Part shown: piece by piece, positions 24,033 to 40,317 of the stretch
Layout of the letters: each line of letters begins with the position of its first letter
Position numbering within the stretch: the first letter of the stretch is position 1
DNA from: Arthrobacter terrae
GTDB taxonomy: Bacteria > Actinomycetota > Actinomycetes > Actinomycetales > Micrococcaceae
Direction of reading: 5' to 3'
NCBI RefSeq assembly: GCF_015708085.1
Contig: NZ_JADNYM010000004.1
Coordinates: 124,001 to 188,000, forward strand
DNA length: 64,000 nt
Notes under the pieces: model-generated
Database searches by the model: none
Seen by the model: only the letters and a program-made list of their open reading frames with translations
What the model was told of the DNA's origin: nothing
Translations under genes and position numbers: made by a program

Positions 24033-24905
24033 TCACCCTGCCGGAAAGGGCGCGGCAGGGTGACGTTCAGAGATCCCCGTCCCGAGGCGCTCCTCCCAGA
24101 GTTTTCCGAGCACGCAGTGCACAGGGATCCCGTGTTTGAACAAGCTGATAGCGTCCCTGATCCGGAGCTGGCTGCCCGCAGACGGTACCGTCGGTGTGAG
24201 TCGGTTCAGCGCTGCCAGTTCAGCCGCTGTGGCCTCCCAGCGCTGGGCGTGCAAGCGGACCTGCCCATCGGCGACGATGTTCTCGGTGGTGGCGGATAAT
24301 GCTCGGTACAGGTTGGGCATGATGCCGAGGTGTCGGTGCAGGGTTGGGAGAAGCTCCGGGTTGACGTTCAATTGCCGGCACGTCTGCTGCACCATTTGCA
24401 GAATATCGGGGGCCAGGGCGTCTGGGGGAGCGGGCGGATCCAGCTCCGCTTCGGCGTTGGCAGGCAAATCCACGGACGTTTTGTGCTCCGCCGGGGAGGA
24501 GGCGTCATTCGTCCACTGTTGGGCGTTGGGGTTCTCCAGGTGGTGCTGCATGACCTGGAGTACCACTAGGTTCCTCGGGTTCGACCAGTTGTAGACGTGC
24601 AGAATTTCCAGGGCCCGGTGCCGGTCCTTGTCGTCCACCCCGTGCTGGTCCCAGTACTGCGGCGCCAGCGGCGGGAGCAGTGGAACGGGTGTGGCTGCAA
24701 GGGACTGCGCCGCAGGGTCCAGAAAAGCCTGGGCCTTGAGTTCCTTAACGATTGAAACGGCCCACGGCAGAGCGTCCGGTATGGTCGCGAGGTGGCGGTA
24801 AATGAGGTTTATGGTGCGGACCGGCAGCGCAGCCTTCAAGGCTTGGTAACAGTCCAGCGTTTCTCCTTCGGCCTCGCCTTCCGGGATCTCCGGTAACAAG
24901 GTCAC
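24033..24905 (-). CDS. DehI-like (2-haloacid dehalogenase family) protein
   Basis: 290-aa soluble protein. VRTINLIYRHLATIPDALPW (residues 29-48) and a second, related half (LLPTLHRHLGIMPNLYRAL, near residue 190) match the pseudo-duplicated DehI group of 2-haloacid dehalogenases, which replace the halogen of 2-halo acids with hydroxyl. Many DehI-like genes have no tested activity, so the substrate is open. Its start overlaps the CitE-like gene by 4 nt, making it the last gene of a six-gene operon. Its 3' end forms the terminator stem. Confidence 0.6.
   Translation of the reverse strand: MTLLPEIPEGEAEGETLDCYQALKAALPVRTINLIYRHLATIPDALPWAVSIVKELKAQAFLDPAAQSLAATPVPLLPPLAPQYWDQHGVDDKDRHRALEILHVYNWSNPRNLVVLQVMQHHLENPNAQQWTNDASSPAEHKTSVDLPANAEAELDPPAPPDALAPDILQMVQQTCRQLNVNPELLPTLHRHLGIMPNLYRALSATTENIVADGQVRLHAQRWEATAAELAALNRLTPTVPSAGSQLRIRDAISLFKHGIPVHCVLGKLWEERLGTGISERHPAAPFPAG
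24034..24062. terminator. Bidirectional terminator hairpin
   Basis: CACCCTGCCG (24034-24043) pairs perfectly with CGGCAGGGTG (24053-24062) around a 9-nt loop. It sits between two convergent genes and also encodes the last nine residues of the minus-strand gene. Confidence 0.7.
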
Positions 24906-25798
24906 GAGGACCGCCGGGCTGCCGCATGGGAGCGCAGGATCGCCCGGGACCGTTCGACGATTGGTTCGTCCACCATTTGTCCGTCGAATTCAACGGCTCC
25001 AATTCCAGCTGCAACAGCTGCGTCGAATTCCGAGAGCATCCGCTGTGCCCGGTCAACCTCCTCGGCGGTTGGCGAGAATCCCTCGTTGACGATGGGCACC
25101 TGGCTGGGATGGATACAGCTTGCGCCAACAAATCCCTGCTGCCGGGACGCTGTGACCACGTTCCGAAAGGCGCCTTGGTCCCGATAATTGGCAATGGAGC
25201 CCACCAGCCCCAGCGGCAACACCCCGGCGGCACGGGCGGCCAGCACGGTCATCTGGTTTGCCACCAGTTGCAGCTGCGGGTCCGGCGGGATCCCGGTGGA
25301 GGCGGCGAAGTCCTCCGAGCCCAGAGTCAGGGCCACGATCCGGGGTGAGGCAGCTGCGATCTCCTGCAACCGCCAAAAACCGGCCGCCGTCTCCACCATG
25401 GCGATGAACCGCACCGAACCGGAGGCCATCCCGGCAGCGGCCTCGATCTCGGTGACCACCTCGTCGATCATCCGCACGTGGTCCGCACTGGCTATTTTCG
25501 GCAGGGCCAGGGCGCGCACACCGGGCCGGACGGCAAATTCGAGGTCGCGCACCGCCATCCGCCACGGCCGGTTGATCCGCACCACAACATCCATCCCGCG
25601 CCCGGCCAACAAATCGACGGCCGCGGGCAGGGCCTGCCGTGCCTGGTCCTTTTCGCCGGGCGGAATGCTGTCCTCGATATCCAGCTGGATGGCGTCAGCC
25701 CCGCGGGTATGGGCCTTGTCCACAAATCGCCGCGAGGTGACCGGCACGTAGAGCAGGGACCGCCAGTTGATGTTGTCCGCAATTGACGTGGTATTCAT
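24902..25798 (-). CDS. HpcH/HpaI aldolase family, CitE-like CoA lyase
   Basis: 298-aa enzyme of the CitE/malyl-CoA-lyase family, which cleaves or forms malyl-, citramalyl- or citryl-CoA. Typical parts: RSLLYVPVTSRRFVDKA at the N-terminus, the LDIEDSIPPGEKD metal and phosphate segment, RINRP, and the metal ligands in MVETAAGFW and LGSEDFAAS. Overlaps of 4 nt with both neighbours couple it to a CoA-transferase (upstream) and the DehI-like gene (downstream). The likely job is to cleave the CoA ester made by the transferase. Confidence 0.9.
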   Translation of the reverse strand: MNTTSIADNINWRSLLYVPVTSRRFVDKAHTRGADAIQLDIEDSIPPGEKDQARQALPAAVDLLAGRGMDVVVRINRPWRMAVRDLEFAVRPGVRALALPKIASADHVRMIDEVVTEIEAAAGMASGSVRFIAMVETAAGFWRLQEIAAASPRIVALTLGSEDFAASTGIPPDPQLQLVANQMTVLAARAAGVLPLGLVGSIANYRDQGAFRNVVTASRQQGFVGASCIHPSQVPIVNEGFSPTAEEVDRAQRMLSEFDAAVAAGIGAVEFDGQMVDEPIVERSRAILRSHAAARRSS

Positions 25799-26979
25799 CC
25801 GAACACTCCCTGTTTTTGCAGTTCTTCCCAGCGTTCGTGCGGCAGCAGTTCCTGCAGGATCTCCCTGCTGTGCTGCCCCAGCCCGGGGGCAGCAGCCGCA
25901 ACGCTGCCCGGGGTTCCGTTGAGCCGCGGTACCACGTCGTGCATCGGAACCGAACCCATACCCTCCGGGCCCGGTCCGTCGATTACTACGCCGCGGGTCT
26001 TGAAATACTCGCTTTCCATGAGGTCGCCGATGTCCATTACCGGGGCAGCGGTTACACCGGCGGTGCGCATCGCAGAGAGGGTTTCATCGAGATTGTGAGC
26101 GCCGAAGTAATCCCCGAGAATGGCGTCCAGCTCCAGGACATGAGCCAGCCGGGCTGTGTTGTCCCGGAAGCGGAGGTCATCCACCAGCTCGGGCCGGCCG
26201 ATCGTGCGAAAGATCCGTTCGGTCATCATCTGGGTAGAACCGGACAGAGCCAGCCACTGCCCGTCGGCGGTGGCATAAACATTGCGGGGGGCGGAGGAGG
26301 ATGACCGGCTTCCGCTGCGCTGTGGCGCATCACCGGTGAGCCGGTAGGTGCCGGCCTGTGGGCCGAGCACCGAAAACAGCGGTTCGAAAAGGGACAGGTC
26401 GATGACTTGGCCCGGCCCACCCGCCTCGGCGTGCCGCACGGCCGCCAGTACGGAGAAGGCACCGTAGGTTCCGGCCACCATGTCAGCCAGTGCCCCCGGT
26501 GGCAGCACCGGTTCCCGGTCAGGAAAACCATTCATCGCCGCCAGCCCGGACATCGCCTCGATCAAGGTGCCAAATCCAGGTTCCTGCGACATCGAGCCGG
26601 TCTGTCCCCAACCCGAGATCCGGACCACCACTAGTTTGGGATTGCGCTCGTGCAGGGTCTCCGGGGACAGTCCCAGACGCTCCAGGTTTCCCGGCCGGAA
26701 ACTTTCCACCAGAACGTCGGATTCCCCGGCCAGCCGAAGCAGCAGCTCTCTGGCCTGTTCGTTCTTCAGATCCAAAGCGATGCTGCGCTTGTTCCGGCCG
26801 TAGACCTTCCAGTACACCTCGCTGCCCTGCACCACCCAATTGCGCAGCGTGTCGCCGTGGCCAGGTTGCTCCACCTTAATCACGTCAGCGCCAAAATCCC
26901 CCAGCAGCATGGTCAGCTGATTTCCGGCGACCAACCTGGAGAGGTCCAGCACCCGGATGCCGGCCAGCGGGCCGCTCAC
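25795..26979 (-). CDS. CaiB/BaiF-family (class III) CoA-transferase
   Basis: 394-aa enzyme moving CoA between carboxylic acids. Family features: GIRVLDLSRLVAGNQLTMLLGDFGADVIKVE at the start, and the catalytic Asp in PPGALADMVAGTYG (near residue 170). With the CitE-like lyase next to it, an activate-then-cleave route is likely, such as succinyl-CoA:malate or citramalate CoA transfer followed by lyase. It overlaps the ATPase gene by 4 nt. Confidence 0.93.
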   Translation of the reverse strand: MSGPLAGIRVLDLSRLVAGNQLTMLLGDFGADVIKVEQPGHGDTLRNWVVQGSEVYWKVYGRNKRSIALDLKNEQARELLLRLAGESDVLVESFRPGNLERLGLSPETLHERNPKLVVVRISGWGQTGSMSQEPGFGTLIEAMSGLAAMNGFPDREPVLPPGALADMVAGTYGAFSVLAAVRHAEAGGPGQVIDLSLFEPLFSVLGPQAGTYRLTGDAPQRSGSRSSSSAPRNVYATADGQWLALSGSTQMMTERIFRTIGRPELVDDLRFRDNTARLAHVLELDAILGDYFGAHNLDETLSAMRTAGVTAAPVMDIGDLMESEYFKTRGVVIDGPGPEGMGSVPMHDVVPRLNGTPGSVAAAAPGLGQHSREILQELLPHERWEELQKQGVFG

Positions 26980-28106
26980 AGCCCGTCCTCGACGTCGCTG
27001 GCCAGCCGTGATGGCGGGATGTCTTCAGCAAAGACGAACAACCCATCCTCCGGAACAATCAGCCACACCTGCTGTTCGTCGAGTTTGTGCTCACCCTCGG
27101 CGAAGATGAGCTGACCTGCTGCCATCAGCTCGAACTCGTAGCGGGCGCCCACGTAGGACGCCTTCTTCAAGTCCGCGGGAATGGCGTTGACGGAGATCGC
27201 CGGGACATCATCGCGCGGTTGGCTCACCTTCACCAGCTCGGACCGGACGCCAATTGTCACGTGCGTCCCTGCGGCGAACGCCGTAGCCGACGTGACCCGC
27301 AGTGTGCCTTCACCGTCGACCAGATCCACCACCAGGGTTCCCGCACCGGTCTCCAGCACTTTCGCCCGGAAAAAGCTGCACCTGCCAATGAAATCCGCCA
27401 CAGCCAGACAATTCGGGTGATCGTAGATCTCGTTCGGCGTGCCCACCTGCAGCATCTTCCCCTCACCCATCACAGCCAGCCGGTCCGACAGTGACAGGGC
27501 CTCCAGCTGGTCGTGCGTGACATAGATCGTGGTGATACCAACGCTCTGCTGCAGTTCCTTCAGCCAGGCGCGGGCGCGGTCCCGAAGCTTCGCGTCCAGA
27601 TTGGACAACGGTTCATCCAGCAGCAGGACGCTCGGCGAATACACCAGCGCCCGGGCCAGCGCGACACGCTGCTGTTGCCCGCCGGAGAGCTCGTGCGGGT
27701 AGCGCTTGCGGTAGGGCAGCAGGCCTACCTGGTTCAGCGCATCGCCAATGCGCCGGTTCTGCTCGGCCTTGGACGCCTTGCGGATCTTCAGCGGCATAGC
27801 CAGATTGTCTTCCACCGTCATGTGCGGCCACAGGGCGTAAGACTGGAACACCATACCCAGGTTGCGTTCCTCCGGGGTGAGGAAGCGGTGTTTTGCCGCA
27901 TCGACAAAAATCTCCGGGCCTACCCGGATGATCCCTTTCGTGGGTGTCTCCAGCCCCGCGATGGTGGACAACGTCGTCGTCTTCCCGCAGCCGCTGGGGC
28001 CCAGCAGCGTAAAGAACTCCCCATCGTTGACGGTGAACGTGACGTCGTCAACAGCGGTTTGGCCGTTGAATTCGACGGATAATCCTTCAACGATCAGATC
28101 AGGCAT
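26976..28106 (-). CDS. ABC transporter ATPase, iron/phosphonate/polyamine type
   Basis: 376-aa ATPase with Walker A GPSGCGKTT, signature LSGGQQQRVALARAL, Walker B LLLDEPLSNLDAKLRDRAR and the H-loop in YVTHDQLEAL. A C-terminal TOBE region (from about residue 250) is typical of the Fe(III), 2-aminoethylphosphonate and spermidine importers. It overlaps its permease by 8 nt and the CoA-transferase by 4 nt. Confidence 0.94.
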   Translation of the reverse strand: MPDLIVEGLSVEFNGQTAVDDVTFTVNDGEFFTLLGPSGCGKTTTLSTIAGLETPTKGIIRVGPEIFVDAAKHRFLTPEERNLGMVFQSYALWPHMTVEDNLAMPLKIRKASKAEQNRRIGDALNQVGLLPYRKRYPHELSGGQQQRVALARALVYSPSVLLLDEPLSNLDAKLRDRARAWLKELQQSVGITTIYVTHDQLEALSLSDRLAVMGEGKMLQVGTPNEIYDHPNCLAVADFIGRCSFFRAKVLETGAGTLVVDLVDGEGTLRVTSATAFAAGTHVTIGVRSELVKVSQPRDDVPAISVNAIPADLKKASYVGARYEFELMAAGQLIFAEGEHKLDEQQVWLIVPEDGLFVFAEDIPPSRLASDVEDGL

Positions 28107-29901
28107 ATGAACTCACCTTGAGTACCTTTCCGGCAATGATGACGAAGACCGCGGTGATCGCAATCTGGATGCATGACAGTGCCGCCACCGCTCCGCTGTT
28201 GCCGTTGAGCCACAGCTGCAAGGTGGTGGTGCCGATGACCTGGGAATCGGCGTTGGCCAAGAACACCGCCGGGGTGTACTCCTTGAACATCTGCACGAAC
28301 AACAGCACCAGCGCGGAGAACATTGCCGGTACGATCAGCTTGAACAGGATCCGGCTGAAGGTCCGCCACCAGTCGGCTCCCAAGGTGCGGGCGGCGTCGT
28401 CGAGCTCCTCGCCGATCTGCATCACCAGCGGGGCGATGGCGCCGAACGCTGCCGGCATGGATCGGGTACCGAACGCGATAATCAGCGCCAGCAGCGTGCC
28501 GTTCACAGCGTTCAGGGGCCCGATTAGGGCAAAGGCCCAAAAGAAGCCGATGCCGATGATCAGCCCGGGAATGACCTGCGGCGTCAGGGTCCCGAACTCG
28601 AGCACCTTGTTGAACCGGAACGTCGAGCGCCGGGCCACCAGCACCACCACCGAGACGAACAAGGTGGTCACGACGGCGCCGACCAGGGCGATGAACAGTG
28701 AGTTCCGGATGGACGCGGTGTAGGCCGGGTAATCGAACACCAGGGTGAAGTTGTCCAGCGTCAGCAGCGTCATTGGGTTCACCAGCGGGGTCAGCAGCTG
28801 AGTGAAGGCCCGCAGCAGCAGCCCGAGGATTGGCAGCAGCGGGCCGAAAATGATGTAGAGCACGGCGATCACAAACCCCACCCAGCGCAGGGCGCCGAGT
28901 TCAAGCAGCCGAGGACGGGAGGCCTTGCCCCGGACAGCGACGAACCGGCGCGCGTTGCGCAGCGAGACGCCCTGGATGACGATCAGGATGGCCATGACCC
29001 CCAGCGTCACCACCGACGCTGCACCGACCAGGCCGTAATCGGGGTTGGCCTGCGCCAGCCCATTAATGTAGATGAAGCTGGAAAACAGATTGATGCCGGC
29101 CGGCCGGCCGAGCAGCAGCGGAATGCTGAGCTCCTCGATCGAGGTGCTAAAGATCAGTAGGGCCGAATACAGGATCGCGGGTCGCACCATCGGCAGCACC
29201 ACCGACCAGAGGATCCGAAGCGGCCGGGCACCGCAGGTCCGCGCTGCCGCCTCCAGCGAGGGGTCCGCGAGCTTGAGCGCACCGGAACAGTACAGGAACC
29301 CGATTGGCACCAGCGTGACGGCCTCGGCCAAAGCCATCCCGGGGATTGAATACAGGTTCCACGGCACCACGCCCAGCAGATTTTCGACGGCAATACTGAC
29401 GAATCCGGCCGGTCCGTACATCAGGATGAAGCCGAACGCCATCACAAGAGGGGAAATGTAGATCGGCCAGAGCAGCAATGATCCCAGCGCCCGGCCGCCG
29501 GGCATCCGCACCCGGACCACCAGCACCGCCAGCAGCAGCGAGAGCACGACCGCAAAGACGGTGGTCAGGGCGGCGAAGTACAGACTGTCCAGCACCACTT
29601 TGCCAAAGCCTGCCGTGGTGAACAGCTTGACGTAGTTCTCCGGCGTCAGCAGGCCGCCCTCTGCGTAGAGCGGCCGGTCGATCAGTGACTGGTAGAGGGT
29701 GGGCAGCAGCGGGGCCAGGACCAAGGCAATGGCCGCGATGAAGATGGCATACTGGATCCACGTCGCTTTGCCGTGTCCGAACAGCCGTCGGTATTTGGGC
29801 GGCGGCAGTTCCTCGGTGCGCCTTGGCTGTGCTTTTGTCTCGGTGGTCACGCCCGCCGCCCCTGTTTCCCGGGGACGGCGGCCCGCAGCATGGAAGGCCA
29901 C
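28099..29901 (-). CDS. ABC transporter permease, two-domain FbpB type
   Basis: 600-aa inner-membrane protein with two permease domains of about six segments each; each half has its EAA loop (SLEAAARTCGARPLRILWSVVLP and DDAARTLGADWWRTFSRILF). This fused layout is usual for iron- and phosphonate-type importers. The start is GTG at 29901, 3 nt after the binding-protein stop; GTG at 29850 is a possible alternative. Confidence 0.92.
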   Translation of the reverse strand: MAFHAAGRRPRETGAAGVTTETKAQPRRTEELPPPKYRRLFGHGKATWIQYAIFIAAIALVLAPLLPTLYQSLIDRPLYAEGGLLTPENYVKLFTTAGFGKVVLDSLYFAALTTVFAVVLSLLLAVLVVRVRMPGGRALGSLLLWPIYISPLVMAFGFILMYGPAGFVSIAVENLLGVVPWNLYSIPGMALAEAVTLVPIGFLYCSGALKLADPSLEAAARTCGARPLRILWSVVLPMVRPAILYSALLIFSTSIEELSIPLLLGRPAGINLFSSFIYINGLAQANPDYGLVGAASVVTLGVMAILIVIQGVSLRNARRFVAVRGKASRPRLLELGALRWVGFVIAVLYIIFGPLLPILGLLLRAFTQLLTPLVNPMTLLTLDNFTLVFDYPAYTASIRNSLFIALVGAVVTTLFVSVVVLVARRSTFRFNKVLEFGTLTPQVIPGLIIGIGFFWAFALIGPLNAVNGTLLALIIAFGTRSMPAAFGAIAPLVMQIGEELDDAARTLGADWWRTFSRILFKLIVPAMFSALVLLFVQMFKEYTPAVFLANADSQVIGTTTLQLWLNGNSGAVAALSCIQIAITAVFVIIAGKVLKVSSYA

Positions 29902-29904
29902 ATG

Positions 29905-31110
29905 CTATTTCCCCATGCCGGATTTCCACTTGGCTTTGAATTCCTTGGCCTGTGCATCGGTGATCGGATCGTAGCCAACCGTGACGATCTTGTCCTTGCC
30001 TCCCACCTTCTTCACGATGGAGTTGTAGTTGCGCGGCGCCTCCTCGTCCGTGATATCGCTGCGGTACGGTGTGAATCCACCGTTGTACACCGCGATCTGA
30101 CCACTGTGCGAGAGCAGGAAGTCCAGCATGAGCTTGGCGGCGTTCGGTGTGGGGGAGGTTTTCGGGATCGCCATCCCGCGAAGAAAGATCGGCATCCCGT
30201 CGTCAATGTAGCCCCAGCCAAGGATGGCGCCGGTCTTTTCGGCCTGCGGGATGACCACGGTGGAGGACAGGAAGAAGCCGGCCAGGTATTCGCCGGAGTT
30301 AATCTTCTCCACCATCGGCCCGGAGGACTGCTCCGCGCGGACAAAGGGCAGCAGCTTGTCCAGCGTGTCCCAGGAATCCGGGCGGGCATTGGCCCAGCTG
30401 TATTCGATGGCATAACCGAAGCTGTTCTCCACGTCGTAGGTGGTGATCTTGTTCTTGAACTTGCCCGGGTCGCTCTCCACCAGCTTGACCAGCGAGGCCA
30501 GCCCCGTGGGGTACTGCTCCTTCTTGAGCAGCGTTTTGTTGTAGCCCATCAGGATCGGGTCGGCGGAGAAGGTGTACAAACCCGGCAGCGGGTGGCCGAA
30601 ATCGGGAAGTTTGTCCGTTTCCGGGGACTTGTAGTCGGAGGCGGACTTCTTGTTGATGAAATCTATCCAGCTGGTGGGATCACCGGAGACCATCAGCGCA
30701 GCCGGCGAGGTGCCGCTGGCGGACTCGGCGTAATACTTCTGAAAGACCTCGGCACTGTCGAGGTTGTTCGTCGAAACCGTCATCCAGGGGTACAGCTTGG
30801 TGAAGGCGTCGGAGATCGGCTTCCAGTTGTACTCGGCCATATTCGAGTAGATGGTGAGTTTCTTTTCCGCCTTCGACCCCTCGACTATCGAGTCGTAGTC
30901 GGAGGGGTAGTAGGAGGGTCGGGACTCCACCGGAACGGTCCCCTTTGCGTCGGAGGACCCGGAGGACCCGGAGGAGCTCCCGCAGCCGCTCAACGCGCCT
31001 ATGCCAGCCAGCGAGGTCCCCGCCAGCAGGGCACCGCGCATGAAAATGCGCCGGTCAAATGCTGCCTGGATATCCGAGATGCTTCTCTTGCGTGCCGATT
31101 CCTCAATCAT
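29905..31110 (-). CDS. ABC transporter substrate-binding protein, probable Tat lipoprotein
   Basis: 401-aa extracellular binding protein of the iron/AEP-type family. The N-terminus carries a twin-arginine stretch (DRRIFMRGALLAGTSLAGIGALSGC) ending in the lipobox LSGC, then a Ser-rich linker. The mature part has ALMVSGDPTSWIDFINKK and TVVIPQAEKTGAILGWGYIDDG. It is the first gene of the six-gene operon. The typical tyrosines of iron binding are not evident to me; the co-encoded CoA enzymes suggest an organic acid ligand rather than iron. Confidence 0.9.
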   Translation of the reverse strand: MIEESARKRSISDIQAAFDRRIFMRGALLAGTSLAGIGALSGCGSSSGSSGSSDAKGTVPVESRPSYYPSDYDSIVEGSKAEKKLTIYSNMAEYNWKPISDAFTKLYPWMTVSTNNLDSAEVFQKYYAESASGTSPAALMVSGDPTSWIDFINKKSASDYKSPETDKLPDFGHPLPGLYTFSADPILMGYNKTLLKKEQYPTGLASLVKLVESDPGKFKNKITTYDVENSFGYAIEYSWANARPDSWDTLDKLLPFVRAEQSSGPMVEKINSGEYLAGFFLSSTVVIPQAEKTGAILGWGYIDDGMPIFLRGMAIPKTSPTPNAAKLMLDFLLSHSGQIAVYNGGFTPYRSDITDEEAPRNYNSIVKKVGGKDKIVTVGYDPITDAQAKEFKAKWKSGMGK

Positions 31111-31536
31111 CAGGTTGCCTTTCGCTGCGGTCGTTCTGGCTGTGGTTGTACCAACGGTGCTTGCGGTGGGGACTTGGGGTGGTGCCAGCTGGAATGTGGA
31201 GTTATTGCCGGAGGCCCGACGGCGTCTGATTAGCCGGGCGGTGCCGTCCCCCCTGCGGTCTGGCCGACGACGGCGCCCGCTGGCCGTCGTCGTCGGACTT
31301 GGCGTGGGCCAACTGCCGAAGTCCGGGCGTCATGACCGGGGAGAGGGAGGGACGCGGGCGATCCGCGCGGGCGTCCTGCCCGATTGCTCCGGCTGCATCT
31401 CATGCACTGCTTCTCCCGCCTCACCTGCCGTCATTGGAAGGTGATCTACAGGAGAGACTTGTCCCTATTTTATAAAAAGTCAACGATTTAGTATCAAAAA
31501 AATAGACAGCGCTCCATCCCGACCTAGGCTATTGCC
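31111..31536. promoter_or_regulatory. Divergent promoter region
   Basis: No gene is supported in these 426 bp. From 31460 to 31510 the DNA turns markedly AT-rich, with a perfect palindrome TTTTATAAAA at 31468-31477. This is the likely control region of the binding-protein operon (minus) and the GntR gene (plus). No clear -35/-10 pair can be chosen. Confidence 0.4.
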
Positions 31537-32241
31537 ATGGCACTTGAACCGATGGTCGTCCGCACGAAGAGCGAGGCTGCCTACGCTGCGCTGCGCGAGG
31601 CGATCCTTGACCAGCGGCTGGCTCCGGGACAACGGGTGACTTTGACCAGCCTCGCCTCGGAGCTGGGCATGAGCCTGACCCCGGTCCGGGAGGCGCTGCG
31701 GCTGCTGGCTACGCAGGGACTGGTGCGTCAGGACGCGAACCGCGGAACCTGGATCACCGAGTACTCACCGGCCCGCGCCGAGGAGGTCTATCAGCTCCGC
31801 CTGCTGCTGGAGCCCTACGCCATGCAGCTGGTCGCGGTGGAGAGCACTGATCAGGACCTGGCCGACATCGACGCAGCGCTCGCCGACTTTGATCGGGCCT
31901 GTGCCGAGGAACGCTACAGCGAGCTGCCGGAGCTCAACGCCGCGCTGCACCGGCGTATCTACAGCGCCGCCAGAGCCGGTGTGCTGCTGGGTTTTATTGA
32001 CCGGCTCTGGCAGAGCATTCCTTATCAATCCATGAACGTGATCAGCCATCACGACAGGTCCGCCGAGGATCATCACCAGATCGTTGCTGCCCTGCACCGG
32101 CGGGACGGTGCCGGAGCTGCGCGGGCGCTCCGGAATCATATTGAGCATGCGCACGCCGAGACCAGCCATCGCATGGAACGCTCTTCGGAAAACACCGGTT
32201 CCACCCCGCCAGCTGCCCGCGCGGGCAATCGACCGAAATGA
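31537..32241 (+). CDS. GntR-family regulator with FCD domain
   Basis: 234-aa regulator. Winged helix at about residues 12-75 (AYAALREAILDQRLAPGQRV, SELGMSLTPVREALRLLATQGLV), FCD effector domain in the remainder (YQLRLLLEPYAMQLVA, then HHDRSAEDHHQIVAAL). It is divergent from the ABC/CoA-enzyme operon and 9 nt upstream of the reductase gene, so I infer that it controls both. Confidence 0.92.
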   Translation: MALEPMVVRTKSEAAYAALREAILDQRLAPGQRVTLTSLASELGMSLTPVREALRLLATQGLVRQDANRGTWITEYSPARAEEVYQLRLLLEPYAMQLVAVESTDQDLADIDAALADFDRACAEERYSELPELNAALHRRIYSAARAGVLLGFIDRLWQSIPYQSMNVISHHDRSAEDHHQIVAALHRRDGAGAARALRNHIEHAHAETSHRMERSSENTGSTPPAARAGNRPK

Positions 32242-32250
32242 GGATATTCA

Positions 32251-33177
32251 ATGTCAAAGGTGACAATTGTCGGTGCAGGAGCCATGGGCTCTGTCTACGC
32301 CGGGCTCATGCAGGACGCAGGGCACGAGGTACATGGGGTTACGCACTGGCCCGACCATGCCGCCGCCGTCACCAAAAACGGTCTGCGGGTCCATGGCGCC
32401 AGCGGCGACCGCACCGTCCGGCTCGCATCTATGACGACGACGACGGACGGCATCGGACGCTCGGACCTGGTCGTCATTGCGACCAAAGCCTTCGACGTCG
32501 AAGCCGCAGCATTATCTGCCCGTTCCCTGATCGGTCCGCACACCGTGGTGCAGACCATCCAGAACGGACTTGGTTCCGCGGACCGGGTCGCGTCCGTGCT
32601 GGGCGCTGATCGGCTGGCCGTCGGCGTGGTCGGTGGCTTCGGGGCCTCCGTACCCACCCCCGGAACCGTGCACCACAATGGTATGGAAATGGTCCGGTTC
32701 GGCAGTTATTCGACCCTGCCCCGCGCGGAGCTGGCCGCGTCGGCCGAGGTCTGGACCTCGGCTGGATTCCAGGTCAGGCTCTTTGACGACATTGCGCAGA
32801 TGGTGTGGGAAAAGCTCATTATGAACGTGGCCTTTTCCGGCACGTGCGCCCTGACTGAACTGACTATTGGAGGTGTGATCGCGGACCGGAACGCCTGGCA
32901 GGTGGCATCGGAATGTTCGCGCGAAGCCGTGGCAGTGGCGCAGGCCGCGGGCATCACTCTCGACGTCGGCGACCCTATTGAGCACGTACGCACCTTGGGC
33001 GGCAGGATTCCGCACGCCCGACCCTCCATGCTTATCGACGCTTCACTGCGTCGACGCGGCGAAGTCGACGCCATCAATGGCGCCATCTGTGCGCGGGGGA
33101 AGGAACTCGGTGTTCCCACACCGGCGAACGATACGGTGGTGGCGCTCGTCAAGGCGCGCGAGGCGGCGTACCTCTAA
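32251..33177 (+). CDS. 2-dehydropantoate 2-reductase family oxidoreductase
   Basis: 308-aa NADP-dependent reductase of the ketopantoate reductase family. The nucleotide site is VTIVGAGAMGSVYAGLM; NGLGSADRV, KLIMNVAFSG (catalytic Lys) and the late SMLIDASLRRRGEVDAINGA are typical. It may make pantoate, but the position directly behind a GntR regulator and opposite an acid-degradation operon fits a 2-oxo acid reductase of that pathway just as well. Confidence 0.9.
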   Translation: MSKVTIVGAGAMGSVYAGLMQDAGHEVHGVTHWPDHAAAVTKNGLRVHGASGDRTVRLASMTTTTDGIGRSDLVVIATKAFDVEAAALSARSLIGPHTVVQTIQNGLGSADRVASVLGADRLAVGVVGGFGASVPTPGTVHHNGMEMVRFGSYSTLPRAELAASAEVWTSAGFQVRLFDDIAQMVWEKLIMNVAFSGTCALTELTIGGVIADRNAWQVASECSREAVAVAQAAGITLDVGDPIEHVRTLGGRIPHARPSMLIDASLRRRGEVDAINGAICARGKELGVPTPANDTVVALVKAREAAYL

Positions 33178-33224: not shown

Positions 33225-34541
33225 TCAGCGCAGGAGCCGCTCCAGCGCCCAATCCCAGCGGATGAGTTCCTGTTCCAGCCGGACGGCCGGGCCGTATTCA
33301 TTGCTTCCCAGCGCCTTGTAGACGGCGGATTCGGCCTCGGTCAGCCGGGTCAGCGTGGCCCGCGAGGGGGAGGGCTCGTGTCCCCAGGCGTCGCGGTGGG
33401 CCAGCAGCGTCTCCTTGTCCATCAGGAGACTGACCACGTGTGGATGCACCGCCCGCAGCTGGTCCAAAATGCGGAAGCCGTGAGTGTCCAGGTCTCCCCA
33501 GTAGAGGATTCCGCAGTGCCTAAGCCATTGCGCTTCCCGCAGGGCCGAGAAGCCGTAGCCGCGGCCAAAGAGGGCAAGCGTCCCGGGGCGTTCGGGCAGG
33601 GCCAGGAAGTTCACCAGGTTTTCCGTGATTATGACGGTGTGCACGGGCAGGCGGAGGGAGGCGAAAGCGTCGGCCGTGACGGTAATGTCCCGCGCACTGC
33701 CCAGGGCGGGCATGCCGGGGTCCAGGACGCGGAAGCGGACCTGCTCGGGCGGATGCAGGAACCCGTGGCGGTCGGCGAAACGTGCTGCCGGGGTCCGCGC
33801 GGCTGAGTCTTCGAGGAGGGCATTTCCCGCGGGTTCGCAGGTCAGACCTGCACCGGTCAAATCTTCGTCGATAGCTTGCTCGCCGGTCACGTCTTCCCGC
33901 GCCCCGGTCACGTCTTCCCGCGTCCCGGCGTCCCCTTCCACCGCGTCAGCCCTCGCCAGCGCTGCGGCCATGTCATCGATGGTCCGGCGGTGCGTTTCGA
34001 TGAATTTGGTGTGCACGCCGGGGAGGCTGAGCTGGCGGACGTAGATGCCGGGCGCGGGGTTGTCCCGCAGCCAGCGGGCGGCGCGGGCGGCAGTCAGCGC
34101 CGCGCCGTCGAGCTCCAGCAGCTGCAGCGGGCGCTTGGCACCCCAGCTGGCCAGCCCAGGATCGAGTTCGGTGAGCTCCGCAGCCAGTTTCCGGAACCGT
34201 ACGGCGTCCTGGGTCCTGCCGGCGAAGGCGATTTCGTCCTCGACGGTGGCGAAGACAGCGGCGGAGGGGAGTGTGTTGGGCCCGATGGTGGTGCGCCCGG
34301 CCTCCGTGGTTTCCAGAGAAAATTTCCGGGCCGCGGCGAACAGCTCGGCGGCCCAAGTGCGGGCAGCGGGGTAGTCATTGCGCAGTTCGGTGGCCGTGGG
34401 CCGTTTCAGTGGGCGACGACGGGGATAGGCTCCGGTGGGCTCCACCAGTTCGCGCAGCAGTTGGCCTCGGTCCCAGGAACCCTCGGACAGGGCGCGCAGC
34501 CGGGCCACGGTGGTCCAGGAGTGCCGGGGTTCAGCCCGCAT
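33225..34541 (-). CDS. jetD: Wadjet nuclease subunit JetD
   Basis: 438-aa JetD, the nuclease of the Wadjet anti-plasmid system. The N-terminal DUF3322 region (WTTVARLRALSEGSWDRGQLLRELVEP) is followed by the DUF2220 Toprim-like domain: Glu307 in ITENLVNF and the acidic cluster GDLDTHGF (349-356) that binds metal. I start at ATG 34541, giving an 11-nt overlap with jetC (upstream ATGs at 34559 and 34595 are possible). In studied systems JetD cuts plasmid DNA after loop extrusion by JetABC. A linker before the Toprim part carries a 21-bp in-frame tandem duplication (33883-33924). Confidence 0.92.
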   Translation of the reverse strand: MRAEPRHSWTTVARLRALSEGSWDRGQLLRELVEPTGAYPRRRPLKRPTATELRNDYPAARTWAAELFAAARKFSLETTEAGRTTIGPNTLPSAAVFATVEDEIAFAGRTQDAVRFRKLAAELTELDPGLASWGAKRPLQLLELDGAALTAARAARWLRDNPAPGIYVRQLSLPGVHTKFIETHRRTIDDMAAALARADAVEGDAGTREDVTGAREDVTGEQAIDEDLTGAGLTCEPAGNALLEDSAARTPAARFADRHGFLHPPEQVRFRVLDPGMPALGSARDITVTADAFASLRLPVHTVIITENLVNFLALPERPGTLALFGRGYGFSALREAQWLRHCGILYWGDLDTHGFRILDQLRAVHPHVVSLLMDKETLLAHRDAWGHEPSPSRATLTRLTEAESAVYKALGSNEYGPAVRLEQELIRWDWALERLLR

Positions 34542-37500
34542 GTATGTCCTGCGCGGCATGTACGTCCCGGTCCGCCCGCTTGTCCCGCTCGGCACGGTAT
34601 TCCTGGATGGTCATATTCCGCAGCTGGGAATCATTGCCGTTGGGATTGGCCACGAAGCCGACATGGGAGACGAACGGCTCAATTACGTGGATTTTCTGCA
34701 GCGGCGTGACGATCAGCAGCTGCAGCTTCATCCGCTGGAAGAGCTCCAGACCGTATCTGGCGGATTCGTCGGATCCGCGGCCAAAGGCCTCGTCAATGAC
34801 CACGAAGCGGAAGCTGCGGCCGTTGTCCACAGCCCGTCCGGCGCCAGCCCGTCCGGCACTAGGCCGTCCGGCACCGGACCTCTTGCCCGCGCCGAGCCCG
34901 AATTGGAAGGCCAGAGCAGCGGCCAGGATGGTGTACGCCAGTTTCTCCTTCTGGCCCCCGGATTTGCCGCCGGAATCGGTGAAGTGCTCGTATTCCTCGC
35001 CGGTTTCCGTCCACTTCTCCGAGGCGGAGAAGGTGAACCAGTTGCGCACGTCCGTGACCTTGGCGGTCCACCTCTCGTCCAGGGTGGTGAAGCCGTCGCG
35101 CCCGCGGAACCGTTCGATCAGCCGTTCCACCTGCAGGTATTTCTGTTCCGAGTACTGGTCGTCGTCCCCGATGGTCCCTTCCGAACAGGCCCGCAGATCG
35201 ATGCCGAACTGGCGCACATCAAGGTCCGTGGTGTTCTGGTGCTCCAGCTGGATGTGCCGGCCCGGGTTGTACTCGATGCCGGCCAAGGAGACATTGATTT
35301 CGCCGATCCGGTTCACGATGTCCTGCCGCCGGCTGTCCAGGAAGGCGTTGAAGGCCACCACCTCGTGGATGGTGTTCTGGTTCAGTGACTCCTTGAAGTG
35401 CGCCTCGAAACGGGGCAGATCGTTGCTGACCAGCTCTGCCAGGAGTCTGTTGAAGTCGCCGGCGGATTCCAGCGACGCGTCGATTTCCGTCGTTTCGTTC
35501 GGGTATTTGTTCCGGAAATCGGCCATTTGCCGCACCGTGCTCTCCGCTGCCCGGGCGATGCGTTTGGTCAGCGCATCGATGGTTTCCGTCAGCCCGGTCC
35601 GCACAGTACTCTCCACCGTTGCGGTGTTCCGATACGTGAGCGGCTTGCCGGTGAGTTCAGCGGCAGCAAGCCTGGCGACGGCGGCCAGCACGCCGCCGTC
35701 CTCCGTCAGGGGACTCGAGGCGAGGACCGTACGGCATTCCTCGATTGCCTCGGCAATGTCTTTGCCGTCTTTTTCGTTGGCGCCCAGGCGCTGCTGGATT
35801 TTCCCGGTCTGCTCTTCCAGCCGTCCCAGCCGGAGCAGGGTATCCGCTTCCTTGGCCGTCAGCTGTGCCAGGATATCGCTGGCGGATTCAAGCTGACGTT
35901 TTTCCTCCTTGAGTTCCTCGATGCGGCGGGCCGTGAGCTGCCAGCCGATCTCGTCGAAGTCCGCGACGGAGCGCAGGCTGCCGAGCTGCTGATTCGCCCG
36001 GCCAAGCTTCCCCAGCGACGCGTCCACCGTGGCCAGCTGCGCATCCGTGCCGGCCAGCTGGCCGGTGACATCGTCGAGTTCCGCGTGGAAGCGGCTGACC
36101 TTGTCGTGATTGTCCCAGCCGAGCACGAAGTTTTTGCGGTCCGCCAGGTCCTTGCGGTCATCCTTCTCATGCCTGCCGCGGCCGCCCTTGAGCTGGCCGT
36201 TGGCCGTCAGCGCCTTGGGATGACGGCGGAAATCCTCCATACTGGCGGCGCAGAAGTGGTCAAAGCGGCCGGAGAGTTCGTCGAGCAGGAAGTCGCGGAA
36301 CGGCGTGCCTGCCTTAATGGCAATCTTGGCGGCGAGGGTTCCCGGCGCGGCGGCCTTGGGCGAGTAGGTGTCCTGGATCCGCAGATAGACCAGCCGGCCG
36401 CGCAGGTTGTTGCCGTCCACCCAGTTGCTGACGGCCGCGTAGTGCTCGTCCGGAACCAGCAGGGACAGGGCGAAGCCGCGCAGAGTTCGTTCCGCGGCGC
36501 CCTCCCACAGGGACTCGCCGTCGCGCACGCGCAGCAGCTCGCCGGCGTACGGTAGAGCGCTTTCGGTGATGCCGGTGCCCTCGGACAGCCGATGGCGGAG
36601 CTCCAGTTGGGCCCGGGGGAGCAGATTGGTTCGGGCCTGCAGGCTGGTCAGGTCCGCCGTAAGCTCCGCTGCCCGTCCGGCCAGTTCCGCCCGGGTGACG
36701 GTCAGAGCGGTGCGGCTGCCGTGCAGTTTTGCCGTTTGGCCGCCCAGGTCCGCCTCCACCGCCTCCAGCCGTGCGCGGTTGGCGTCGAAGACGACACGGT
36801 TTTCGGGTGCCTGCAGGCCCAGTTCCGCGGCCGCCGAGGCGTAGGTTTCGAAGCGCTGCCGCTGCGTCCGGGATTCACCGGCAAGCCGCGCCACCTCGGC
36901 GGAGATGGCCTCCAGCCGGCCACCGCCGTTGCTGCGGATGTCCTCCTGAATAGCGGAGAGTTCATGCCGCAGCGCGGTGATGTCCGTGGTCAGCTTATTG
37001 CTGTCCGCTTCCAGCCGGTGGCCGGTGCGTTCCAGCTCGCCCTGGTGTTCGCGGCTTAGCGCCAGCCTGCGGTCGGTAAACCAAGGATGCAGCTGGTCCC
37101 GCTGTGCACGGGCCAGCTCGTCCTCGGCGCTCAGCCGGGCGTGGGTTGCGGCGCCGTCTTGGATGGGCGTCAAAAGCGTGATCTGGTGCTTCGCGCGCAG
37201 CACCGCGTCGTGTGCCTTCTTCAGGTCATCGAAGTGGTGGATCAGGGTACGGATCCGGCTGCCGGCGTCGTCGTCCTGGAGCATATTGGTGCGCACAAAG
37301 GAGGTGATGTTCTCCACCTGCTTCATCGACACCGTGCGGTGGAACAGGTCCATGGCCTGGTTCCCGCTAATGCCAAACTGCCGTTTGAACGCGGCGGCAT
37401 AGGGGTCGAAGGAATCATGGACGGATACGCCCTGGGCCCGCAGCTTCTTCTTGAGCCTGGCCGGATCCTTGCCGAAGTGCGAAAAATCCGCCACGATGGA

Positions 37501-38007
37501 CTGATTTGTTTCGGCGAGGGAGTAGAAGCGGTTCGGCTGGCCCGCCTCCTGCGTTGCCCAAAGGGTGATGGCCAGCGTGACGGACTTGCCCAGGACAGCG
37601 TTATGGAAGACGCCCAGGACCACGCTCAGCGCGCCGGTTCCGCGCAGCGCGACCGGCTTGGAGTGCTCGCCGCCGGTGCCGCGGGTGCTCTTGTGGAAGC
37701 CGCGCACGTAGGACATCAGGCTGCGTTCCTTCTTCTGCGCGCCCGCGGCCTTGTTGTACTCGATACGGTTCGCCGGCAGCAGCAGTGTGGTGATGGCGTC
37801 CACCACTGTCGATTTCCCCGAACCGATGTCCCCGGTCAGCAGACTGTTGTCGCCCTCCAGCCGGAACACGCGCACTCCCTCGTGGAACGTACCCCAGTTC
37901 AGCAGTTCCAAACGGTGCAGTCGGAACCCCGGCTGTATGCCGCCGTCGTCCGGTAAATTCTCGGGCTCTTCAAGGGTGAAGAGGCTGTCCTGCAGCTCGG
38001 TGGTCAT
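34531..38007 (-). CDS. jetC: Wadjet SMC-like motor subunit JetC
   Basis: 1158-aa SMC/MukB-like ATPase. Walker A is GDIGSGKS (59-66), the ABC signature SGGQ is at 1016-1019 and Walker B ends in VVIDEAF (Asp1072-Glu1073). Long coiled coils lie between, around a hinge near the middle. JetC dimers extrude DNA loops with JetA and JetB. Between signature and Walker B a 15-bp unit is repeated three times (34831-34875), adding an Ala/Gly/Arg-rich insert. It overlaps jetB by 4 nt. Confidence 0.95.
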   Translation of the reverse strand: MTTELQDSLFTLEEPENLPDDGGIQPGFRLHRLELLNWGTFHEGVRVFRLEGDNSLLTGDIGSGKSTVVDAITTLLLPANRIEYNKAAGAQKKERSLMSYVRGFHKSTRGTGGEHSKPVALRGTGALSVVLGVFHNAVLGKSVTLAITLWATQEAGQPNRFYSLAETNQSIVADFSHFGKDPARLKKKLRAQGVSVHDSFDPYAAAFKRQFGISGNQAMDLFHRTVSMKQVENITSFVRTNMLQDDDAGSRIRTLIHHFDDLKKAHDAVLRAKHQITLLTPIQDGAATHARLSAEDELARAQRDQLHPWFTDRRLALSREHQGELERTGHRLEADSNKLTTDITALRHELSAIQEDIRSNGGGRLEAISAEVARLAGESRTQRQRFETYASAAAELGLQAPENRVVFDANRARLEAVEADLGGQTAKLHGSRTALTVTRAELAGRAAELTADLTSLQARTNLLPRAQLELRHRLSEGTGITESALPYAGELLRVRDGESLWEGAAERTLRGFALSLLVPDEHYAAVSNWVDGNNLRGRLVYLRIQDTYSPKAAAPGTLAAKIAIKAGTPFRDFLLDELSGRFDHFCAASMEDFRRHPKALTANGQLKGGRGRHEKDDRKDLADRKNFVLGWDNHDKVSRFHAELDDVTGQLAGTDAQLATVDASLGKLGRANQQLGSLRSVADFDEIGWQLTARRIEELKEEKRQLESASDILAQLTAKEADTLLRLGRLEEQTGKIQQRLGANEKDGKDIAEAIEECRTVLASSPLTEDGGVLAAVARLAAAELTGKPLTYRNTATVESTVRTGLTETIDALTKRIARAAESTVRQMADFRNKYPNETTEIDASLESAGDFNRLLAELVSNDLPRFEAHFKESLNQNTIHEVVAFNAFLDSRRQDIVNRIGEINVSLAGIEYNPGRHIQLEHQNTTDLDVRQFGIDLRACSEGTIGDDDQYSEQKYLQVERLIERFRGRDGFTTLDERWTAKVTDVRNWFTFSASEKWTETGEEYEHFTDSGGKSGGQKEKLAYTILAAALAFQFGLGAGKRSGAGRPSAGRAGAGRAVDNGRSFRFVVIDEAFGRGSDESARYGLELFQRMKLQLLIVTPLQKIHVIEPFVSHVGFVANPNGNDSQLRNMTIQEYRAERDKRADRDVHAAQDIHAG

Positions 38008-38744
38008 CGGCCGTGTACCTCCATGGTCCCGTTGGTGGCAGTGTCATTGGTGGCAGTGTCGTCGGGAGCGGTGTCAGTGTCGGCGGTCTGCGACGGGGTT
38101 TCGGGTGGACTTTCTCCCACGGCTGGACTTTCTCCCACGGCACCGCCGAGCGATGCCCGGTAGTCCGCCAGCCGGGCGTCAAACTCTTCGAGCCACTGCG
38201 CATCCACGTAGGCCTTGAGGATGCGCGCCACCTCGTATGTGCCAAGCTGTCCGCGCAGTTTCCGCAGGAAGCCCAGCTCCGCCACCTTTTTGATGTTGGT
38301 GCCGAGCTGGTCAAGAATGCGGGCCTCATTGCTCGCTTCCGGAAGGAAAACCGCGACCATATCCGCAATCTCCTGTTCGGTCATGATCAGCCGCAGTTCG
38401 CTGCTGTTCGTGTCGAATTCAAGCATCCGCCCGCGCAGCAGCGCCAGCAGCAGGCTGACGTTGAAGGTCAGCTGGCGGCGCGGAATCAGCCGGGGCAGCG
38501 TGCCGTCCGCATCCTCGCGGGACCGCAGGAACGCGTATCCCTCCGACTCATCCAGGATCAGGTCTAAACCCAGCACCGCAACGTAGTCCCGGACCTGGGA
38601 GAGAAGCCCCAGCAGCGACTGCCACAGCTTCTCGTCGGCCTCGGCGTAGACCACTCCCTTGAACAGCCGTGTGACGACGACGGGAAGTTCCTCGGGCGTG
38701 CGGGTACCCTGCTCGGTGTTTCCGTGTTGCCCGGTGCTGCTCAT
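38004..38744 (-). CDS. jetB: Wadjet subunit JetB (KITE-like)
   Basis: 246-aa DUF4194 protein, the MukE/KITE-like partner of JetA and JetC. VVTRLFKGVVYAEADEKLW opens the first winged-helix part, and RRQLTFNVSLLLALLRGRMLEF is characteristic. The C-terminal tail (from about residue 200) is low in complexity and contains two tandem duplications (15-bp unit at 38031-38060, 18-bp unit at 38103-38138). It overlaps jetA and jetC by 4 nt each. Confidence 0.94.
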   Translation of the reverse strand: MSSTGQHGNTEQGTRTPEELPVVVTRLFKGVVYAEADEKLWQSLLGLLSQVRDYVAVLGLDLILDESEGYAFLRSREDADGTLPRLIPRRQLTFNVSLLLALLRGRMLEFDTNSSELRLIMTEQEIADMVAVFLPEASNEARILDQLGTNIKKVAELGFLRKLRGQLGTYEVARILKAYVDAQWLEEFDARLADYRASLGGAVGESPAVGESPPETPSQTADTDTAPDDTATNDTATNGTMEVHGR

Positions 38745-40183
38745 GCGGGCCTTCCAAACACGATCTGGTCAACGGTGGCTTCCCGGATGCTGCCATCCGG
38801 CAGGGTCCAGGACAATTGCTGCACGGTTTCGGGGTCGATGCTGGCCCAGTCCGAATCCGTGGCCAGCTGGTAGTAGGCCACGATTTCGGCCAGGCCCTGG
38901 GACAGCGGATGTGCGGAGGTGATTTCCCCGAGGGTCGCCTGGCCCGCGTCGGCAAGGACATCGTTGATGTAGGCCTGGAGCCGTTCCGGGTCCACGTGGA
39001 ACTGGCTGAACAACGCGCCCGCGTCCACGTCGGCGTCGTCGGCGGTCACAACATCGTCGTCCACCACGGTGCGCCGGCTCGGCTCATACAGCGGGCGCTC
39101 AAACGGCAACGCGACTTCCACCGTTGGCGCCGGGAGTTCGGTGAACACGCCGGCCGGCGTCTGCATGCGCAAGGCAAGGGCGCCGGATTCGATGCTCCGT
39201 ACCAGCTGCATGATCCGCTTGTTTTCCAGGAACACCTTGTCATCCAACAGGCGGCGCATCTGTGCGGACAGCTGCCGGACGGTACCCTGGGTCTGTTCCA
39301 CGGCCGGCAGCCAATCCTGATGCAGCGTGGTTACCGCCTGCAGGTTCTCCACACCGGCGAGGGCCTCGATTTTAGTGGCGCGTTCCAACAGATCCCGCAG
39401 CTCTGTGCGAAGCTGCGGGGACATGAGGTAATCCCAGAAACCCTGAAACGTGCGGCCCTGCAGCGAACTGTTAATGTCCTGCTGATTGGCGAAGATGGAC
39501 GCCAGCAGCTCGCCCTGGCTGCCGTTCCAGGTGGCAATCTGTTCCCGGACCTGGCGGTCCAGCCTGCGGAAGTTCTGCTCCACCTCACGGAAGTCCGAGA
39601 GCAGGTCCTTGGCCAGTGTGGTCAACTGCTGGAAGTGGTCCAGGGCCTCCGGGGCGCTCATCACGCGAACGTTGCCGCTGCGGATCCGTTCCATCTCCGC
39701 GTCGATGCCGTCGCGCTGGCGTGCCAGCTCGGCAAGGCGCACCTCCGGGTCCGTCTCGGACTGCTGGACCAGGGTCTTGAGCACCGCAAAGATGCTGGTG
39801 AGGCGTGACTGGGTGGCCACGAAGTCACGGCCGCGCAGGCTCTCCACCCACCGGACCACGTCCTCGGACGCGGCGGTGAGGTCATAGCGCGGCTCATCCT
39901 GACCGGGCAGATAATATTTTCGCAGCCACGCCCGCTCCGGTGCCGCCCAGTCGTCCAGATACTCCGACGCCGGGCGGGGAAACCGGTCCTCGCCGAAGGA
40001 GTCACGGAGGCCAAACAGCAGGTCGTCGAGGACATCGATCAGCTGCTGGCGGCCGATGTTGCGCTGGTTCGGCCCGGTGAAGGCCGTCATAAAAAGACAC
40101 ACCGCCAGCGGCGCGTTTTGGGCGCGGAGCAGGGACCACCCGGCGTGGTTTTCACGCAGCGCATTTATCGCGTAGTAGTCCAT
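38741..40183 (-). CDS. jetA: Wadjet subunit JetA (kleisin-like)
   Basis: 480-aa DUF3375 protein, the MukF-like kleisin of type I Wadjet. MDYYAINALRENHAGWSLLRAQNAPLA begins with the family start, and long helices with coiled-coil character follow (residues 150-260). The ATG at 40183 has GCGGAGGAA upstream; a longer frame to 40270 would run through the promoter. First gene of jetABCD. A DUF3375 JetA together with DUF4194, a COG4913-type ATPase and DUF3322/DUF2220 defines type I. Confidence 0.94.
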   Translation of the reverse strand: MDYYAINALRENHAGWSLLRAQNAPLAVCLFMTAFTGPNQRNIGRQQLIDVLDDLLFGLRDSFGEDRFPRPASEYLDDWAAPERAWLRKYYLPGQDEPRYDLTAASEDVVRWVESLRGRDFVATQSRLTSIFAVLKTLVQQSETDPEVRLAELARQRDGIDAEMERIRSGNVRVMSAPEALDHFQQLTTLAKDLLSDFREVEQNFRRLDRQVREQIATWNGSQGELLASIFANQQDINSSLQGRTFQGFWDYLMSPQLRTELRDLLERATKIEALAGVENLQAVTTLHQDWLPAVEQTQGTVRQLSAQMRRLLDDKVFLENKRIMQLVRSIESGALALRMQTPAGVFTELPAPTVEVALPFERPLYEPSRRTVVDDDVVTADDADVDAGALFSQFHVDPERLQAYINDVLADAGQATLGEITSAHPLSQGLAEIVAYYQLATDSDWASIDPETVQQLSWTLPDGSIREATVDQIVFGRPA

Positions 40184-40317
40184 TTTGTTCCTCCGCTGCG
40201 GCCGCCCGGTTCCCGGCTCTGTGCCTGCTTCCATGCTAATGGACACCCGCTGCGGCACCGCGGTCACCATGGCCGCACCCGCAAAGACCGTCGCACCCGC
40301 TGTAGCAGCCCCGTCCG

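Follow-up and report, generated by a model that had tools for sequence, protein, structure and literature searches.

The window analysed here, a 64,000-nucleotide stretch of the genome of the soil actinobacterium Arthrobacter terrae (contig NZ_JADNYM010000004.1, positions 124,001 to 188,000 of the forward strand), carries six co-directional minus-strand genes at 24033-31110, running from 31110 to 24033. In that order they encode a binding protein, a double permease, an ATPase, a family III coenzyme A (CoA)-transferase, a CitE-type lyase and a 290-residue protein with a distant likeness to the dehalogenase DehI. On balance we favour the view that they form an operon for degrading a hydroxylated di- or tricarboxylate, which would combine import, CoA transfer, retro-Claisen cleavage and a 2-oxo/2-hydroxy acid oxidoreductase with a putative DehI-fold accessory protein. 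The principal argument for a hydroxycarboxylate substrate is that the transferase and lyase recur as a pair in other genomes, mostly beside carboxylate transporters.

Recurrence of the transferase and lyase

A match to the CoA-transferase was present in 221 plasmid records, and ten of the 20 matches listed were examined, the last two having been picked for their binding-protein and lyase matches. In all ten, a CitE-like match (34-50% identity) lies no more than 1.3 kb from the transferase. The nearest transporter is of the present ATP-binding cassette (ABC) type in four, a TRAP transporter in two, and a tripartite tricarboxylate transporter, a 2-hydroxycarboxylate transporter and a putative sulfate exporter in one each, the remaining one being unannotated. 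At least five alphaproteobacterial plasmid records (Pararhizobium qamdonense, Aureimonas sp. AU20, Shinella sumterensis, Ensifer canadensis and Ensifer sp. PDNC004) hold the whole five-gene core in equal order, followed in each by a 2-hydroxyacid dehydrogenase and an RraA gene (the family assignment having been verified for the Pararhizobium pair alone). Because this core recurs in another phylum, the description of an importer joined to CoA steps as unexpected, given in a first-pass annotation of the window, was too strong. Within the window's own family a close CoA-transferase (E≤1e-90) occurs in 10 of 245 genomes, the window included; among four others that were fetched, G016 and G198 have a 56% identical transferase and a 29% identical CitE-like gene within 3.5 kb, with no match to the window importer in the stretch read.

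Two of these arrangements deserve mention in their own right. In Bradyrhizobium guangxiense (L042, 7721-16255) a CoA-transferase and lyase pair comes after a gene of a putative sulfate exporter family, near the tricarballylate dehydrogenase TcuA, and at two other loci (L037, 3440-11093; L040, 3443-11078) an aldehyde dehydrogenase, TRAP transporter, zinc dehydrogenase, CoA-transferase and lyase stand in one run, possibly an alcohol to acid to CoA-ester pathway that feeds the same transferase and lyase steps.

Organization and conservation of the module

The six genes are real and lie on one strand, as previously described, and they are kept in identical order in a same-genus genome, which we take to be that of Paenarthrobacter sp. 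Z7-10. The features of the region are as follows.

29905..31110, minus strand: extracellular solute-binding lipoprotein-like protein (MctA/SBP_bac type), 401 residues; Pfam SBP_bac_8/1, phmmer 6e-34 to PDB 7f6p, 91% identical in Z7-10
29851..29904, minus strand: spacer from binding protein to permease, holding two stem-loops, provided that GTG 29850 is the permease start; start codon conservation and folding
28099..29901, minus strand: fused double permease, likely start GTG 29850; PF00528 (BPD_transp_1) in two stretches, 97% identical in Z7-10
26976..28106, minus strand: ABC ATPase, PotA/PhnT2/FbpC-like; PF00005, best NCBIfam TIGR03265 at 329 bits, under its cut-off of 457.7
25795..26979, minus strand: family III (CaiB/Frc) CoA-transferase; PF02515 at 4.7e-116, Asp166
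24902..25798, minus strand: CitE/HpcH-type CoA-ester lyase; PF03328 at 4.7e-38, Arg74, Glu136, Asp163
24033..24905, minus strand: putative distant DehI-fold protein without the catalytic Asp189 of DehI; phmmer 2e-4 to 3bjx, no PF10778 match, residue mapping
31111..31536, no strand: divergent intergenic region, possible promoter/operator; AT-rich block adjoining gntR kept in Z7-10 (DNA alignment), short inverted repeats
31537..32241, plus strand: GntR/FCD-family regulator; PF00392 and PF07729, present in Z7-10
32251..33177, plus strand: ApbA/PanE-family 2-oxo acid reductase; PF02558 and PF08546, TIGR00745 above its cut-off

The permease and ATPase genes overlap by 8 nucleotides, and the ATPase/CoA-transferase, CoA-transferase/CitE and CitE/DehI-like junctions by 4 nucleotides each. 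As the same four lengths (8, 4, 4 and 4) are found in Z7-10, we do not regard the overlaps as a product of chance. The first-pass annotation had also described a 3-nucleotide gap, which would lie ahead of the permease, and this is doubtful: the start GTG at 29901 is GCG in Z7-10 and the GTG at 29850 is conserved, so that the spacer is probably about 54 nucleotides long. In that form it folds as two stem-loops, with z of -1.5 for the window sequence and -2.9 for that of Z7-10. The corresponding spacer measures 59, 67 and 59 nucleotides in three annotated alphaproteobacterial operons, 64 in a Nitratireductor importer and 9 in a Thermus importer. Taken with the alphaproteobacterial plasmid records, the order kept in Z7-10 backs the earlier proposal of a single operon with import, CoA activation and carbon-carbon cleavage. 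As for the same six genes elsewhere, Z7-10 has them all; the alphaproteobacterial plasmids have the five-gene core and lack the DehI-like gene, homologues of which were found in none of the plasmid records.

The module seems to extend past 24033-31110 to the GntR/FCD and ApbA/PanE genes at 31537-33177, since this pair adjoins the operon divergently both in the window and in Z7-10, and since, of five genus genomes examined, three are without the DehI-like gene and these also gave no match to ApbA at E≤1e-30. Between the window and Z7-10 the ratio of nonsynonymous to synonymous divergence (dN/dS) is 0.06-0.16 for the five core genes, GntR and ApbA. The DehI-like gene is 66% identical to its ortholog, with dN/dS 0.31 and dS 0.78, against 82-97% identity and dS 0.30-0.65 for these seven neighbours. 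The values indicate a gene that is under selection, but less constrained or faster-evolving than those around it.

These data also bear on another account of the last gene, that its product is some other enzyme, or works together with the lyase or transferase, for instance as an isomerase, a hydratase or a scaffold acting on a CoA ester or a 2-oxo acid. The gene stands in frame with a 4-nucleotide overlap in both genomes and its dN/dS indicates selection, and at the same 3' position the rhizobial operons place their dehydrogenase and RraA; on the other hand, its low identity and high dS relative to its neighbours speak of weak constraint, and the sequence names no activity. We hold this to be a minority possibility of some substance, and one that is compatible with the hydroxycarboxylate operon that we favour.

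Downstream of the DehI-like gene in Z7-10 (L009, 5746-6849) there is a luciferase-like monooxygenase gene on the same strand, 70 nucleotides away, where the window has a convergent gene.

The CoA-transferase and lyase

The earlier assignments of importer, CoA-transferase and CitE-like lyase hold, both in their Pfam domains and in the checked catalytic residues of the two enzymes. Asp166 of the transferase, presumably the nucleophile of family III CoA-transferases, is kept in 16 of 16 aligned rows, and Arg74, Glu136 and Asp163 of the lyase, which we take to be the active and metal site of CitE-like (HpcH/HpaI) lyases, in all 17, the window being counted in both cases. The lyase scores 178.6 against the citE equivalog TIGR01588 (cut-off 443.4) and 137.1 against the itaconate lyase equivalog RipC/Ccl, NF038242 (cut-off 375). 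Neither enzyme reaches an equivalog cut-off that would name its substrate.

The importer and its ligand

Automatic naming offers PhnT2, PhnU2 and a ferric-transporter label for the importer, all under the family cut-offs (TIGR03265, 329 against 457.7; TIGR03262, 130.6 against 593.25; NF008513, 284 against 496). The nearest solved binding protein is that of the PDB 7f6p series, which matches a Thermus thermophilus pTT27 protein (E=3e-224). Its molecule name is given as "periplasmic iron-binding protein"; the entries of the series, however, bear the title of metal-citrate-binding protein MctA, with Mg-citrate or citrate as endogenous ligand. These titles were reached through Foldseek with a low-confidence model and only the titles are used, the homology resting on the phmmer match. 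No paper on MctA was found in the open-licence literature. Six mutated MctA residues, S26, D28, S79, S164, T199 and Y221, correspond to Asn, Ala, Gly, Asn, Ser and Ile in the window protein, none being identical and one (T199 to Ser) similar; the Y221 position is Ile in one alignment and Thr in that of phmmer. Since a D28A mutant is titled as citrate-bound, the loss of this Asp would fit binding of a metal-free carboxylate. Sibling importers in one related genus have a sensor kinase, a response regulator and a major facilitator superfamily gene as neighbours in eight of eight loci. For the kinase and regulator of the one locus scanned, the best-scoring models were DcuS/MalK and DcuR; DpiB and DpiA also ranked near the top, and all these scores lie below the model cut-offs.

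A carrier of iron or phosphonate that stands beside the enzymes by chance only, as the automatic names and the PDB molecule name might lead one to suppose, is on these grounds very improbable: the names fall short of their cut-offs, the nearest solved relative was solved with Mg-citrate, the sibling importers adjoin sensors of dicarboxylate or citrate-like type, and the genes overlap and recur as a set in two phyla. We thus judge the iron/phosphonate cargo of the first-pass annotation to be unlikely.

The DehI-like protein

The last gene product matches DehI (3bjx) in its N-terminal half, residues 4-124, at E=2e-4 by phmmer; a two-sequence profile also links it to DehI (E=6e-4), with an hhalign probability of 93%. 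The predicted models were poor, with mean predicted local distance difference test values of 47 and 29; in that of the DehI-like protein (47) the best four Foldseek matches are DehI-family, at E of 0.08-0.9. Against PF10778 (DehI) there was no match at a limit of E=10, where the HMMER filters drop most matches above about 0.1 all the same. Two relatives of DehI, both encoded by a single distant actinobacterial genome (G620; L011 and L013), do match the profile, at 3.3e-11 and 1e-10. The first-pass annotation had called the protein DehI-like and had itself named failure against a DehI profile as refuting its proposal; the DehI label is not upheld.

One of the relatives aligns end to end with 3bjx and was used to place Asp189 and Asn114 of DehI. 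The former falls on Asn198 in two alignments and on a gap in the third, and an alternative register from an internal repeat puts Leu189 there. In the window protein that repeat lacks significance, 103 of 500 shuffles having reached its score (Z7-10, 142 of 500; a true DehI relative, 2 of 500). No Asp or Glu occurs among residues 185-207. Asn114 is kept as Asn109 in all three alignments. Among the pocket residues named in PMC3546658, all three alignments show substitutions at Trp34, Ala36, Phe37 and Tyr117, and Ala187 and Ser188 are either substituted or unaligned. In HadD AJ1, according to PMC5780510, changing the Asp equivalent to Asp189 to Asn abolishes activity.

Homologues of the DehI-like protein are few. 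At E≤0.001 they occur in 3 of 295 family genomes, namely the window's own, Z7-10 (G028) and G115, whose match (35% over 76 residues) we judged to be chance. In a phylum sample they occur in 3 of 396 genomes, the window's own, G620 and G466, the latter two with DehI-family-like matches of which two G620 proteins were profile-tested. A contig scan that requires exact short patterns, and that may omit the window's own genome, gave one locus.

Taken together, the DehI-fold protein appears from its sequence to be an accessory and not a hydrolytic dehalogenase. In the scheme put forward earlier, the protein would form malate by hydrolysis of a 2-halo acid, 2-halosuccinate for example, and malate would then pass through malyl-CoA to acetyl-CoA and glyoxylate. 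Malate survives from this scheme as one of several possible substrates; the entry step was rejected, there being no PF10778 match and Asp189 being kept in none of the alignments tried. The distant homology, the DehI-family Foldseek matches and the retained Asn notwithstanding, we give a dehalogenase almost no credence, given these losses, the altered pocket, the effect of the same Asp to Asn change in HadD AJ1, and the HAD-type hydrolase that adjoins two of the three DehI-related loci (L011 and L012; not L013) and is missing from the window operon.

Those two loci are of some interest in themselves, as the DehI-family gene near a HAD-type hydrolase gene (L011, 5725-7359, in G620; L012 in G466) puts candidate haloacid dehalogenases of two unrelated families near each other. 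The DehI member was profile-tested in L011, and the HAD member of L012 was judged from its first residues only.

Origin of the cassette

The window permease groups with its actinobacterial siblings (100/100). The permease data reject a single origin of the ABC, CoA-transferase and lyase set in both phyla (p=0.00015), which those for the binding protein do not (p=0.17). The permease topology test kept two sequences, g25_181 and g25_076, despite a stop, which probably stems from a tblastn match starting upstream of the start codon. Locus L031, from the related genus, has a binding protein that holds a TGA and was left out of the MctA-residue, clade and pocket comparisons, and g31_284 (L033) was counted with the actinobacterial set though its kinase link was not seen, as the contig ends after the ATPase.

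Several observations weigh against a hydroxycarboxylate operon of the kind that we favour. One of the ten transferase and lyase pairs adjoins the putative sulfate exporter and not a carboxylate importer, and the sensor-kinase labels miss their cut-offs just as the iron and phosphonate labels do. The citrate contacts of MctA are changed, and the ligand therefore need not be citrate. A permease clade joint with the rhizobial cassettes is what the topology test rejected, and the lyase groups with TRAP-linked lyases and a Sphingomonas one rather than with the rhizobial ABC-linked set; as the two clades differ, the cassette may have been assembled twice, with different substrates. Last, of the alignment columns near the binding pocket, 6 show the window agreeing with the rhizobial set, 2 with the actinobacterial one and 5 with neither (against 10, 12 and 11 in the other columns), a likeness to the rhizobial cassettes that is not significant (Fisher p=0.23).

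As a more speculative proposal, to which we attach distinctly less weight than to the operon itself, an importer-coupled pathway for one metal-free hydroxycarboxylate may have been assembled at least twice from the same families, in actinobacteria and in alphaproteobacteria, the actinobacterial DehI-fold protein having been recruited for a job other than dehalogenation.

Proposed pathway and significance

Protein families, gene order, conservation, the catalytic residues present in the transferase and lyase and those absent from the DehI-like protein are seen directly; the ligand, the induction, the direction and every reaction of the following scheme are what we infer from them. An MctA-type ABC importer would bring in the acid, probably in metal-free form, and the family III transferase would charge it with CoA taken from succinyl-CoA, acetyl-CoA or a similar donor. 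The CitE-like lyase would then split the beta-hydroxyacyl-CoA by retro-Claisen cleavage into an acyl-CoA and a 2-oxo acid, the former being acetyl-CoA for malate, citramalate or citrate and the latter glyoxylate, pyruvate or oxaloacetate. The divergent ApbA-family enzyme may interconvert the 2-oxo acid and a 2-hydroxy acid, and so fill the slot of the 2-hydroxyacid dehydrogenase in rhizobial cassettes, and the GntR/FCD regulator may control both transcripts. As to the ligand, an acid of the malate or citramalate type is our leading candidate, at a little under even chances; one of the citrate type is clearly less probable, and some other acid slightly less so again.

These results correct a tempting and unsupported dehalogenation pathway, and suggest that the label of "iron transporter" can hide an organic-acid importer. 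They also provide a compact, cloneable gene set for finding the acid that such cassettes degrade in two phyla, and, in the DehI-fold protein, a natural dehalogenase relative without the catalytic Asp. No description of the cassette was found among the literature matches listed, which were open-licence papers.

Adjoining the module is a Wadjet-like set on the minus strand (33225-40270), in which PADLOC identifies JetD (E 1.6e-132) and JetC (E 0); genes of 246 and 509 residues precede these in the places of JetB and JetA, as judged by position.

Comparison with known systems

The nearest relative in layout is the rhizobial/alphaproteobacterial plasmid cassette (e.g. Pararhizobium qamdonense, NZ_CP119567.1), which runs regulator, binding protein, permease, ATPase, CoA transferase, CoA ester lyase, hydroxyacid dehydrogenase and RraA, and thus shares the five-gene core in equal order. 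It differs in its regulator, which is of IclR or HTH type in the three annotated records, and in carrying the hydroxyacid dehydrogenase and RraA, where the window has GntR with ApbA and the DehI-fold protein; its permease and lyase also belong to other clades. The clusters of Mesorhizobium amorphae and Sinorhizobium meliloti LMB1, which we take to be the methylaspartate/mesaconate-citramalate pathway, likewise have a CoA-transferase and a lyase, the latter 43-45% identical to that of the window. Their transferase, however, is only 28-29% identical, methylaspartate ammonia-lyase and fumarate hydratase adjoin their lyase, and no such importer was found in the stretches read.

Itaconate degradation by RipABC/Ict-Ich-Ccl, as set out in PMC12290011, also proceeds by a CoA-transferase and then a carbon-carbon lyase; unlike that system, the six window genes include no itaconyl-CoA hydratase, and the lyase score lies far below the RipC cut-off. 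Thermus thermophilus has an MctA-type importer (PDB 7f6e series) with a homologous binding protein, permease and ATPase, but the binding proteins are about 31% identical, the citrate-contact residues (D28 to Ala among them) are changed in the window, and the Thermus stretch read has no transferase or lyase annotated. With DehI and the group I 2-haloacid dehalogenases the last gene product shares a weak likeness in sequence and perhaps in fold, but neither the catalytic Asp nor most of the pocket. The chemistry proposed for the module is ordinary and its arrangement uncommon, and it is a variant of a cassette that is found also in rhizobia.

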